From an uncultured Clostridia bacterium (GTDB taxonomy: Bacteria; Bacillota; Clostridia; Oscillospirales; Ruminococcaceae), in contig CALXGT010000050.1 of the NCBI GenBank assembly GCA_944387915.1, forward strand, positions 1-64,000: a stretch of DNA of 64,000 bases, given 5' to 3'. Shown one piece after another: positions 5,122 through 58,187 of the stretch (its first letter is position 1; each line of letters begins with the position of its first letter). The translations under genes were made by a program, and so were the position numbers. Under the pieces are notes generated by a model. That model did not search any database. It had not been told where the DNA came from and worked only from the letters and a program-made list of their open reading frames with translations.

Positions 5122-6612
5122 TCAATTTTTTTCACCATCCATAAATAAAAACCGACTTGCCACCGCATTTTGAAAAGCCCGGTCGTGCTCCACGAACAAA
5201 ATGGTAGGTTTCCATTGAAGCAGCAGTTCCTCGATTTGCATCCGGGAAACAATGTCCACAAAATTGAGCGGCTCGTCCCAAAGGTAAAGATTCGCTTGCT
5301 CGCTTAAGCTTCTCGCTAACAGCACCTTCTTTTTCTGCCCGCCGCTAAATTCCTCCATATTTTTTTCAAACTGGACCCGCTCAAAGCCGAACTTCCGCAA
5401 AATGGTCTTAAAAAGGCTTTCGTCAATTTCCTCTTGCCTCGCGTAATCGGAAAGATTCCCTTTCAGGAAAGAGGTGTCCTGACTCACGAAGGAGATTTTT
5501 AAATCCGACGGCAAAGAGAGCGCACCGGTATAACGGATGGGATCCCCTAAGATCCGATGCAAAAGAGTGGATTTGCCCGAACCGTTTTTCCCGCAAAGAG
5601 CCACCTGTTCCCCCTGGCTTAAGGAAAAGGAAAGGGGGCCTGCCACAGCCCGATCCCCGTAATATAAAGTCAAGTCCTTTCCGTAAAGAAGCTCTTTTTT
5701 CCGATAGGGAAGAATATGGATTTTTAGCTCTTCCTGACGCTCTACATTTTTCAAGAGCTTTTTCTTTTCATCCAAAGCCGTCTGTCTTCGGTTTTCAATC
5801 GCCTTTGCCCGCTTCATCATTTTCGCTGACTGGTGACCTACATATCCCCTGTCCACCGAAATACCCGAGTTATCCGAATGGTATTTTCCTTTTTCCACCT
5901 TGTCTGACCAGCCCGCCGTCCGCTTTACCGCGGTCTCCAATCGGGAAATATCCCCCGCAAGCCGCTCGTTTTCCCTTTGCTCATATTGATCGAGCCGGTC
6001 TCGATTTTCTTTCCAAGAAGAGAAATTTCCTTTTTGCAGCTCAATATCCCCTTTATTGATAGAAAGGATATGGTCCACCGCGCGGTCGAGAAAATCCCGG
6101 TCATGGGAAACGAGGATAAAGCCTTTTTTCCGGCGCAGGTACTCCCCTAAGATCTCCCGCCCCTCGGCGTCCAGATGATTGGTGGGTTCATCGATAAGCA
6201 AGAACCGGTTTTCCCGCAAAAACATCCCCGCGATCTGAACTTTTGTCTTCTCTCCACCGGAAAGTGTCCCATAGGGACGGGAAAGTACCGAATCGGAGAC
6301 CGAAAGCAAGGAAAGCTCCCGCTCGATCTCCCAGTCCTCCGCATCCGAAAGAATATGCATCAGCTCCAAAACCGGGAGGGTCTCGTTGATGGAATCGTCG
6401 GGGAAATATTCAAACTCCACCGGAGACGAGATGGCGCCCCGATACTCCTCTTTGCCCATCAAAAGCTTCAGTAACGTAGTTTTTCCTCTTCCGTTTCGCC
6501 CAATCAGCCCCAAACGCCAGTTGGTGTCCAAAGAGAGGGATACATTCTCAAAAATATTGTCATAGCTCCCATCATAACAAAAGGTCAGGTGGGAAATAGA
6601 GATTAACGCCAT
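5122..6612 (-). CDS. ABC-F ATPase, Lsa/Vga-like ribosome-protection type
   Basis: A soluble 496-residue twin-ATPase with no membrane segment, as in ABC-F proteins that act on ribosomes. Domain 1: Walker A GRNGRGKTT 38-46, signature LSGGE 117-121, Walker B/NHL 138-147. Domain 2: Walker A GKNGSGKST 341-349, signature FSGGQ 422-426, Walker B WDEPLNFVD 445-453. The basic linker at about 200-300 is where family members reach the P-site tRNA. The N-terminus (DTNWRLGLIGRNGRGKTTL) closely resembles Lsa-type proteins, known for lincosamide, streptogramin A and pleuromutilin resistance. A leader with a short peptide ORF and terminator precedes the gene, which supports antibiotic-induced expression. The substrate class is inferred from resemblance only. 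Confidence 0.88.
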   Translation of the reverse strand: MALISISHLTFCYDGSYDNIFENVSLSLDTNWRLGLIGRNGRGKTTLLKLLMGKEEYRGAISSPVEFEYFPDDSINETLPVLELMHILSDAEDWEIERELSLLSVSDSVLSRPYGTLSGGEKTKVQIAGMFLRENRFLLIDEPTNHLDAEGREILGEYLRRKKGFILVSHDRDFLDRAVDHILSINKGDIELQKGNFSSWKENRDRLDQYEQRENERLAGDISRLETAVKRTAGWSDKVEKGKYHSDNSGISVDRGYVGHQSAKMMKRAKAIENRRQTALDEKKKLLKNVERQEELKIHILPYRKKELLYGKDLTLYYGDRAVAGPLSFSLSQGEQVALCGKNGSGKSTLLHRILGDPIRYTGALSLPSDLKISFVSQDTSFLKGNLSDYARQEEIDESLFKTILRKFGFERVQFEKNMEEFSGGQKKKVLLARSLSEQANLYLWDEPLNFVDIVSRMQIEELLLQWKPTILFVEHDRAFQNAVASRFLFMDGEKN

Positions 6613-6834
6613 AAGTTCTCCTTTCTTTTCCGCAAAAAAACGCCGCAGGAAACCCTGCAGCGTTTCAAACTCAAAAAGGCGTTACTCCTTTTGGGCGAAA
6701 AGATGCATCATTTCCCGCTTTCCAAACGACAAAAAGAAAGGTAACACAAAAAGACGGCTTTCACCGCTTCCTTTTCCTTTTCGCCGTATCGTTAGCAAGA
6801 AATATGCATTTTCTCCCTCCTGATCCTCTTTTTT
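6613..6834 (-). promoter_or_regulatory. Attenuator leader of the ABC-F gene
   Basis: The roughly 220-nt 5' leader carries a leader-peptide ORF, a second short ORF (6682-6711, MMHLFAQKE, weak ribosome site) and a factor-independent terminator at 6633-6664 (stem AACGC-x-GCAGG with its complement, followed by T7), only 20 bp before the ABC-F start. A 9-nt segment GGCGAAAAG (6777-6785) after the leader peptide is perfectly complementary to CTTTTCGCC (6694-6702) inside the second ORF, giving a possible alternative fold. This is the layout of drug-sensing ribosome-mediated attenuation. Confidence 0.75.
6792..6809 (-). CDS. Leader peptide MHISC upstream of the ABC-F gene
   Basis: A five-codon ORF (Met-His-Ile-Ser-Cys-stop) begins 6 bp after a perfect AGGAGG (6816-6821), a stronger ribosome site than most genes here have. 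It lies about 24 bp from the predicted transcription start and about 130 bp before a terminator. A ribosome stalled here by a drug could change downstream folding. It is too short for similarity-based support. Confidence 0.65.
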   Translation of the reverse strand: MHISC

Positions 6835-6839
6835 CGTTC

Positions 6840-6868
6840 ATTATATCAGTCTTTTTCTTCTTTGTCAA
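6840..6868 (-). promoter_or_regulatory. Consensus promoter of the ABC-F gene inside the folC 3' end
   Basis: Minus-strand TTGACA (6863-6868), 17-bp spacer and TATAAT (6840-6845), both perfect. The -35 lies within the last codons of folC and the -10 directly follows its stop codon. Confidence 0.88.
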
Positions 6869-8138
6869 CTTCCCTTTGGTAGCATTCCCGTACCGTCTGG
6901 GAAAAATAAAGGGAACCCAAAGCCACTACGGGGATCCCCGTACTTTTGGCTTTCGCAACGGCGGCATGGACTCCTTCTTCAATCGTAGGAAACGCCGTCG
7001 CTTCTCTCCCGAAGGAACAAAGAAGCTTCGCTAACTCTGTTGCCTCCATCGCCCGGGGATTTGGCGGGGTAATGGTAAAAAACCGTTTCGCGTAAGGAAG
7101 AAGCATCGAGTACATCCCCGTAACATCCTTGTCCGCCAAAGCGCCAGTCAGGATCAAAACCGGTTTTCCGGAAAACTGGGTCTTGATACTTTGGACCGCC
7201 GCCGCCATCCCGTGGGGATTATGGGCGCCGTCTAAAATAAAGAGAGGATCCTCTCCCAGCACCTCGAATCTCCCGGGCCAGCAAACCTGGGACAGCCCCG
7301 AAACAATCGCCTCATCCGAAACCGCAAGCCCTCTTTCCCGAAGAACCTGTAACACGGTGATTGCCAAAGCGGCGTTATTTGGCTGGTAGGTACCCGCCAT
7401 GGGGAGAAACAATCCTTTGTACTCCTTGTAGTCGAAGGTGATGCCTTTTAACGAAATATGAGTGATCCGAAGGGAGTCGGGGTCGGAAAAAGAGAGTACG
7501 CATCCTTTTTTTTCCGCCGTCTTTTGGATCACTGCCTTGGCTTCCTCCGGCTGGGGCGCGCAGACCACCGCCGTTCCCGGTTTGATGATGCCCGCCTTCG
7601 CCCTCGCGATGTCCGAAAGGGTGGGACCAAGCTCTTTGACATGATCCATACCTAACGGCGTGATCACCGCCGCAAGGGGGGGATCAATAACATTGGTGGC
7701 GTCCAATTCGCCTCCCATGCCCACTTCCAATACCACCACGTCGCATTTCTCTCTTTGAAAATACGCCATGGCGATGGCAAGGGTCATCTCGAACTCGGTG
7801 GGAGCATCCTCCATCCCATCGGCAAATGGCCGGATCTCTTCGACGATAGACGCTAACGTCTCTTCGGAAATCTCCTGCCCGTTGACCTGCATCCGGTCAT
7901 TATACCGTTTTAATCCCGGAGAGGTGTATAACCCTACCCGGTATCCCTGGGCGCGAAGCATCGAATAGAGCATGGCACAGGTGCTTCCCTTGCCGTTGGT
8001 CCCGGCGACATGAATAAACGAAAGGGATTTTTGGGGATCCCCCATTAAGGACAGCAATTCCTTCGTCCGGGAAAGTCCCGGCTTGCTTCCGGTCCATTTG
8101 ACGCTAAAAATATACGCTAACGCTTCTTCGTATGTCAT
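6846..8138 (-). CDS. folC: Bifunctional folylpolyglutamate / dihydrofolate synthase
   Basis: FolC adds glutamate to dihydropteroate and/or to reduced folates, which traps folates in the cell. The 430-residue protein matches the Mur-ligase-like family: P-loop GTNGKGS at 46-52, a DATNVIDP segment with the omega-loop region, and a C-terminal ligase domain with FILDGAHNPHGM. It starts 4 bp after folT, so folT-folC forms an operon under the THF riboswitch. With no folP/folK/folB here, salvage through FolT followed by polyglutamylation is a reasonable reading, though the rest of the genome is not visible. Its 3' end contains the promoter of the next gene. Confidence 0.94.
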   Translation of the reverse strand: MTYEEALAYIFSVKWTGSKPGLSRTKELLSLMGDPQKSLSFIHVAGTNGKGSTCAMLYSMLRAQGYRVGLYTSPGLKRYNDRMQVNGQEISEETLASIVEEIRPFADGMEDAPTEFEMTLAIAMAYFQREKCDVVVLEVGMGGELDATNVIDPPLAAVITPLGMDHVKELGPTLSDIARAKAGIIKPGTAVVCAPQPEEAKAVIQKTAEKKGCVLSFSDPDSLRITHISLKGITFDYKEYKGLFLPMAGTYQPNNAALAITVLQVLRERGLAVSDEAIVSGLSQVCWPGRFEVLGEDPLFILDGAHNPHGMAAAVQSIKTQFSGKPVLILTGALADKDVTGMYSMLLPYAKRFFTITPPNPRAMEATELAKLLCSFGREATAFPTIEEGVHAAVAKAKSTGIPVVALGSLYFSQTVRECYQREVDKEEKD

Positions 8139-25560: not shown

Positions 25561-25580
25561 AAACTGCCAAATGGCTCTCG

Positions 25581-25690
25581 CTTGTTTCTTTCATCCGGAC
25601 TATACCGTCGGTTTTGGAATTGCACCAAATCAACGCTTTCGCGCTCGCGGACTATACCGCCGGTGGAGAATTTCACTCCGCCCCGAAACA
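25581..25690 (-). promoter_or_regulatory. FMN riboswitch
   Basis: The minus strand shows the conserved FMN (RFN) elements in order: GGGGCGGAGTGAAATTC, CACCGGCGGTATAGTCCGCGAG, GATTTGGTGCAATTCC, AAAACCGACGGTATAGTC, and CCGGATGAAAGAA. FMN binding would favour the terminator at 25527-25560 and lower ribU expression. No clear promoter is visible just upstream. Confidence 0.96.
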
Positions 25691-25750
25691 TATCAATTTA
25701 TTTTTTATCACCACGGGAAAATTCCCGCCGTAACCAAAGACAAAGGAAAA

Positions 25751-57941: not shown

Positions 57942-58187
57942 ATTCTGAAAGACCTTGATGGGAAGAGTAGCCTTGACCGGTAGTCACAGAGAGCCGCCGA
58001 CGGTGGAAGAGCGGTACGGACGTCAAGAGGAAGAACATCCCGGAGTTGCTGACCGAACTACAGTAGGCTCAGTCGGGTTCGCCCGTTATTGCGAGAGGAT
58101 ATGCTTGTATCCGGAGAGAGCGTTATGCTGAATTTGGGTGGTACCACGGAGATTGACCTTCGTCCCTTGCGGGATGGAGGTTTTTTT
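57942..58187 (+). promoter_or_regulatory. T-box riboswitch with overlapping Glu/Asn specifier
   Basis: A T-box leader: Stem I with AGAGTAG and ACAGAGAGCCG early, specifier region AAGAACATCCC, the T-box GGGTGGTACCACGG at 58136-58149, and a terminator (CCTTCGTCCC/GGGATGGAGG, then T7) at 58157-58187. The specifier holds GAAC at 58033-58036, readable as AAC (Asn) or, shifted one base, GAA (Glu). Uncharged tRNA should favour antitermination and turn on the amidation operon. The bulge UGGU would pair best with an ACCA end. Confidence 0.9.

Follow-up and report, generated by a model that had tools for sequence, protein, structure and literature searches.

A probable ribosome-mediated attenuator of an Lsa-type ABC-F gene and its relatives across Bacillota

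The leader of an Lsa-type ABC-F ribosomal protection gene in the 64,000-nucleotide stretch of DNA analyzed here (the window) is very probably a ribosome-mediated transcription attenuator, judging from sequence conservation and folding calculations, and one that drugs would be expected to induce. The predicted switch is a three-way competition, in which a strand in the middle of the leader (segment B) would pair by default with the codons of a short upstream open reading frame (uORF1, segment A) and, when a ribosome covers uORF1, with a sequence in the terminator (segment C). The evidence that we regard as decisive is the conservation of this design in distant relatives. A single odd leader thereby becomes one member of a defined RNA family in Clostridia and further Bacillota, which has a searchable model and a proposed mechanism pinned to exact bases. 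An earlier note on this DNA had described a drug-induced attenuator at this site: an attenuator that senses ribosomes is strongly supported by the comparison (about 70 loci, compensatory change, and a common downstream gene), and induction by a drug is the part that we infer.

Layout of the leader and its surroundings

All features of the leader lie on the minus strand. The promoter (6868-6840) is a 12/12 match to a sigma-70 promoter, with TTGACA at 6868-6863, a 17-nt spacer, TATAAT at 6845-6840, and an extended -10 TG. Its -35 element lies within the 3' end of folC and its -10 element immediately past the folC stop codon, and the RNA is predicted to start at about 6833. The short uORF1 (ATGCATATTTCTTGCTAA, 6809-6792) reads ATG CAT ATT TCT TGC TAA and encodes MHISC, a peptide that is also encoded by the uORF of a distant leader (L090); its perfect Shine-Dalgarno sequence, AGGAGG (6821-6816), is six nt upstream of the ATG. 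Segment A (GAAAAUGCAUAUUUCUUGC, 6813-6795) consists of the uORF1 codons that pair with B, with its core, AUUUCUUGC, at 6803-6795. Between A and B, the folding calculation places an inner hairpin at 6785-6727 (GGCGAAAAGG...UUUUUGUC), and in an alignment of relatives this interval is also occupied by a hairpin, but with a different sequence. A terminator-like hairpin found by the scanner at 6767-6754 is weak and belongs to this inner hairpin. The switch strand, segment B (GCGGGAAAUGAUGCAUCUUUUCGCC, 6718-6694), has its core, GCGGGAAAU, at 6718-6710. The intrinsic terminator (6664-6634) is composed of a stem-loop at 6664-6639 (AACGCUGCAGG GUUU CCUGCGGCGUU) and a T-tract at 6640-6634, and its loop together with the first part of its 3' arm constitutes segment C (GUUUCCUGC, 6653-6645), which resembles the uORF1 sequence AUUUCUUGC and is the target of B. 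The terminator is followed by the Shine-Dalgarno sequence of the ABC-F gene, AAAGGAG (6624-6618), and, at a distance of about 20 nt, by its ATG (6612). The terminator has a fold z of -4.7, as does the whole leader, for which 0/200 shuffles were equally stable.

The promoter at the tail of folC, the five-codon frame with its perfect AGGAGG, and the terminator about 20 nt ahead of the ABC-F start had all been named in the earlier note, and each is borne out by these results. The same note had listed a second short ORF. This frame is present (M(M)HLFAQKE-stop, 6711-6682) but is not conserved, a short ATG ORF being found at this place in 6/25 leaders, and it is probably incidental: its ATG lies within an AUGCAU of segment B, which is there because B pairs with the identical hexamer in uORF1.

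The ABC-F gene (5122-6612, minus strand) encodes a protein of 496 aa that scores 483.2 bits against the general protection-like model NF000355, above the cut-off of 380. Its best family is the curated Lsa model NF000167, where the score of 693.8 bits is below the cut-off of 750, and we therefore call the protein Lsa-type rather than Lsa. The best structural relative is the Lsa(A) chain in the solved ribosome complex 7nhk (429 bits), the identity to plasmid Lsa(E) is 58%, and within the source genome the gene is the sole close match.

Upstream of the leader on the same strand lies folC (6846-8138), and a THF riboswitch (8859-8762, minus strand) heads the upstream genes up to and including folC. 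A search of the interval between folC and the leader for a terminator found none, so folate transcripts probably stop at the leader terminator as well. They would then also run through uORF1, and under drug, lsa-type RNA could stem from both promoters. Elsewhere in the window, we observe an FMN riboswitch (25579-25694, minus strand) and a T-box leader (57946-58170, plus strand), both above the Rfam threshold, as well as a tandem array (2209-2619) of a 94-base unit in 4.4 copies with 90% matches, directly past a tRNA gene (2129-2201).

Predicted three-way competition and proposed mechanism

The core of B fits the cores of A and C alike, with 9/9 pairs each way when G-U pairs are allowed, and such a triple appears in 7/5000 dinucleotide shuffles of the leader in which the terminator is kept. 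In the folding calculation, the free leader has P(A:B) = 0.99 and a terminator probability close to 1. When uORF1 is covered and the transcript ends at about 6645, the minimum-energy structure is instead B paired with the terminator, and in folding snapshots of the growing transcript, P(B:terminator) is 1.00 with uORF1 covered versus 0.00 with it free. Covering A in silico frees B by necessity, and the informative part of these calculations is the next partner of B. After the window's leader has been transcribed through the whole terminator, the antiterminator is the less stable of the two, which implies that the switch would have to act kinetically, during transcription. Such action during transcription is normal for attenuators. 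An antiterminator on the 5' arm of the terminator was tried and rejected: its best duplex reaches -9.5 kcal/mol, compared to about -14.7 when B pairs with the loop and 3' arm. In addition, no cognate preference for the terminator is seen in the outer part of B.

The triple formed by uORF1, 6718-6710, and the terminator loop with its 3' arm had gone unnoticed in the earlier note, which relied on a 9-nt complementarity between 6785-6777 and 6702-6694. That match is indeed perfect, but it is a weak signal by itself because 115/1000 dinucleotide shuffles contain one, and the alternative fold that it was said to provide is not supported, as 0/24 relatives tested reach 8 nt. The triple is the stronger signal.

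In the mechanism that we propose, transcription would begin at the promoter that overlaps the folC tail. Without drug, ribosomes would finish the five-codon uORF1 fast and leave, and A would fold onto B; with B blocked, the terminator would form and transcription would end upstream of the ABC-F gene. If a drug stalls ribosomes at initiation or immediately afterwards, a ribosome would be parked on uORF1 and hide A, with lincosamides, pleuromutilins, and streptogramin A as the candidate drugs suggested by the Lsa spectrum. The freed B would then grab the terminator loop and 3' arm as both emerge from RNA polymerase, which it could do because C imitates uORF1, and the B:C pairing would beat the terminator's own 5' arm, letting transcription enter the ABC-F gene. 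Start of transcription, the drug-free default, and the capture of the terminator find support in conservation of the sequence, in compensatory change, and in the folding calculations; we infer the parking of the ribosome by a drug and actual induction. The leader also has the parts by which ABC-F attenuators are recognized, with a uORF and its Shine-Dalgarno sequence near the 5' end, an intrinsic terminator between this uORF and the gene, and an anti-antiterminator containing the uORF that is mutually exclusive with the antiterminator, as computed and as reflected in compensatory change.

Control could also be exerted mainly on translation, with the read-through RNA hiding the ABC-F Shine-Dalgarno sequence and stalling exposing it. 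In favor of this reading, the region at about 6624-6613 is partly paired in the full free leader, and cplR combines both layers of control (PMC10201436). We nevertheless consider a mainly translational switch very unlikely: most relatives have a strong intrinsic terminator ahead of the gene, and what B targets in a conserved manner is this terminator, not the Shine-Dalgarno sequence of the gene.

Conservation and distribution of the family

When compared to the one congener examined, the leader is 98.7% identical, with values of 91.9% for the ABC-F coding sequence and 95.5% for folC. Some stretches of folC are equally conserved, however, and this comparison alone is therefore modest and was rejected as proof. 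Such likeness could partly reflect general closeness and, with folC directly upstream on the same strand, the hairpin could be a mere terminator of the folate operon, with the short ORF and the pairings arising by chance and no regulation taking place. This possibility is hardly credible in view of the distant relatives, where the three segments recur upstream of Lsa genes in unrelated neighborhoods and with compensatory change, and in view of the rarity of the triple in shuffles (7/5000).

For transcription attenuation, the comparative evidence comes from ABC-F homologues drawn from 61 relatives and, in addition, from a collection of genomes with one per species. Many of these homologues display a common design consisting of a Shine-Dalgarno sequence, a uORF ending in Ser-Cys-stop, segment B, and a terminator in which the uORF sequence recurs. 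Across 25 aligned leaders, the nine-pair A:B helix has two-sided changes at 4 pairs; the Ser codon, for example, is UCU opposite A and UCC opposite G in B. The helix pairs in 92.9% of cells, and its covariation score is 0.285 versus 0.197 in shuffles (0/500 as high). Covariation and conservation across relatives, which the earlier note had put forward as checks on its reading, are thus both observed. Outside the core, cognate A and B pair at -8.0 kcal/mol versus -5.0 kcal/mol for swapped partners (0/20,000 permutations), and the controls (shuffled sequences, reversed B, and neighboring sequence) are far weaker, with at most a weak effect of composition. The core of B also prefers its own terminator over those of other leaders (0/20,000). 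The uninterrupted run of B:terminator pairs has a mean of 10.4 in 52 leaders, of which 0.5 fall in the 5' arm. In folding snapshots, P(B:terminator) exceeds 0.5 in 37/41 leaders with uORF1 covered versus 2/41 with it free, and the calculated switching is absent in 4/41 (L015, L021, L084, and L118). The 3' arm of the terminator is captured by some upstream sequence in 40/41 real leaders versus 34/123 with shuffled linkers.

A covariance model built on the A:B region and used for genome searches has matches in 39/391 genomes of the class and 28/398 of the phylum, with one leader per genome except for one site read on both strands. An Lsa-type gene adjoins the leader in 30/30 loci fetched from the class search and in all phylum loci except L149, L153, and L170. 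At L149:1735-1800 and L153:1733-1876, the leader is intact but just the first Lsa codons follow it; the Lsa gene seems to have been deleted or truncated there and the leader left behind. The weak match L170 has no Lsa-type gene. The final search yielded 72 aligned matches at 70 loci, two of the matches being opposite-strand echoes. In total, the layout is shared by about 70 loci, found in Clostridia as well as other Bacillota and nearly always upstream of Lsa genes. These counts apply to leaders with the core, as the model itself requires the core sequence and would miss leaders that lack it. The leader is absent from many Lsa homologues of low-GC uncultured Clostridia (e.g., L033-L048) and from the plasmid lsa(B) on L143. 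Against Rfam, the window's leader and the leaders of six relatives gave no match above the gathering score, and we found no description of the leader family or its peptides in the open-access literature searched. Seven leaders (L104, L118, L119, L125, L132, L142, and L155) have a gap of about 110-160 nt between terminator and gene; in L119, L125, and L132, this gap contains further inverted repeats, perhaps a second layer of control.

The family extends to mobile lsa(E). On the Enterococcus faecalis plasmid p12-7 (NZ_KT448818.1; L142:587-842), the lsa(E) leader matches the covariance model at 68.8 bits (E = 6e-14) and includes a uORF encoding MYNFSC, a segment B, a matching terminator (GAGCCGUAAGAAUUUACUUUCUUGCGGCUU), and a TATAAT promoter-like site. 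The gene starts about 160 nt past the terminator, compared to 20 nt in the window's leader, and the lsa(E) antiterminator persists in the folding model even against the full terminator. The 271-base lsa(E) leader recurs with an identity of at least 99% in 106/107 matching plasmid records, which are mostly from Enterococcus and also include Listeria, Lysinibacillus, and Staphylococcus. We predict that drugs against which mobile lsa(E) protects would also induce it, and tests performed without induction might underrate it.

What is conserved in the uORF, and known systems

The peptide MHISC, which the earlier note had not recognized, belongs to a recurrent family, in which uORFs usually read M-x(1-4)-S-C-stop. 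Among the 81 uORFs tabulated, 65 read in-frame Ser-Cys through the core (three Phe-Cys, one Ser-Arg), while 14 stop ahead of the core end, having only M, MK, MR, MI, MF, MKL, MRN, MRI, or MRK before the stop codon. In L171, the core is kept but read in a different frame (MKIFLAK), and the one further row, L139, encodes MYNFSC. The tree of 77 proteins contains 12 interchanges between the two main uORF types, of which at least 7 are forced by supported branches. In the family leaders L141:790-980 (a Paenibacillus urinalis plasmid) and L172, the uORF is apparently a bare start and stop (AUG UGA and AUG UAG).

These uORFs bear on the question of whether the Ser-Cys peptide is itself the sensor, with the nascent M-x-x-x-S-C chain arresting the ribosome in the presence of a particular drug. 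ErmCL and MsrDL are nascent peptides that arrest ribosomes with macrolides. The regulation of MsrD is known to involve a leader peptide (PMC10314930), and in the present family, uORFs that run through the core have a Ser-Cys (or Phe-Cys) frame before the stop in 65/67 cases. We nonetheless consider a peptide sensor unlikely. The peptide as an essential sensor is contradicted by the early-stop uORFs, which keep the RNA core untranslated and are involved in the 12 type changes on the tree, 7 of them forced; L171 reads the core in another frame, and pairing with B also dictates the Ser and Cys codons. Given that early-stop uORFs arose repeatedly with the RNA core kept, stalling at initiation should suffice, and the persistence of the core in these uORFs suggests that the switch could operate without translated Ser-Cys codons. 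Separately, we observe that translated cores keep the Ser-Cys frame, though the RNA switch does not require that frame.

Sensing at initiation would agree with what is known of related leaders. At the uORFs of ABC-F leaders, drugs stall ribosomes at initiation largely regardless of context (PMC10201436), as shown experimentally for vmlR (PMC9226507), and by analogy the early-stop pattern fits drugs of this kind. The family thus separates what is kept in a uORF for the sake of the peptide from what is kept for the RNA, two things that are usually confounded in work on leader peptides. A more speculative reading, to which we give a small but real chance, is that the leaders with M-x(1-4)-S-C uORFs form a separate and widespread attenuator family. 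Its antiterminator would catch the loop and 3' arm of the terminator, which copy the uORF, instead of the 5' arm, and its Ser-Cys-stop end would add a layer of drug-selective arrest. If this were true, the induction of Lsa genes, including mobile lsa(E), would be tuned to particular drugs.

Ribosome-mediated attenuation of ABC-F genes is already known for VmlR (PMC9226507), CplR (PMC10201436), and, according to a review, Lmo0919 (PMC8079631). The published uORFs are MIN for vmlR, MR[I/M] for cplR, MK[L/Q] for vmlR2, and MAGN for lsaA (PMC10201436). The Bacillus subtilis vmlR leader comprises the uORF MIN, the anti-antiterminator SL-1, and the terminator SL-3, and it shares with the present leader an ABC-F gene, a uORF inside the anti-antiterminator hairpin, and the freeing of the antiterminator strand by stalling at initiation, which we propose here; in vmlR, moreover, induction is retained when the short peptide varies in sequence (PMC9226507). 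By this analogy, the switch logic proposed here matches the one shown experimentally for vmlR. The two differ in the uORF (MIN versus M-x(1-4)-S-C), in the gene (ARE2 versus Lsa-type), and in the position of the uORF, which sits in a bulge in vmlR, whereas here pairing is by the uORF codons themselves. The lsa(A) leader of E. faecalis, compared by its uORF only, likewise has a conserved short uORF ahead of an Lsa-family gene, but with the consensus MAGN, which does not end in Ser-Cys, instead of MHISC (PMC10201436). In Clostridioides difficile cplR (MRI; PMC10201436) and Listeria lmo0919/rli53 (a three-codon ORF; PMC8079631), when an antibiotic stalls ribosomes on a very short uORF, the terminator ahead of an ABC-F gene is relieved, and the short variants of the present family, such as MRI-stop in L144, resemble these uORFs. 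Both belong to other gene subfamilies and leaders, and cplR adds control of translation. The logic is that of vmlR, lmo0919/rli53, and cplR; the present family stands apart by its type of uORF, by uORF codons that themselves act as a competing strand, and by a terminator in which the loop and 3' arm mimic the uORF.
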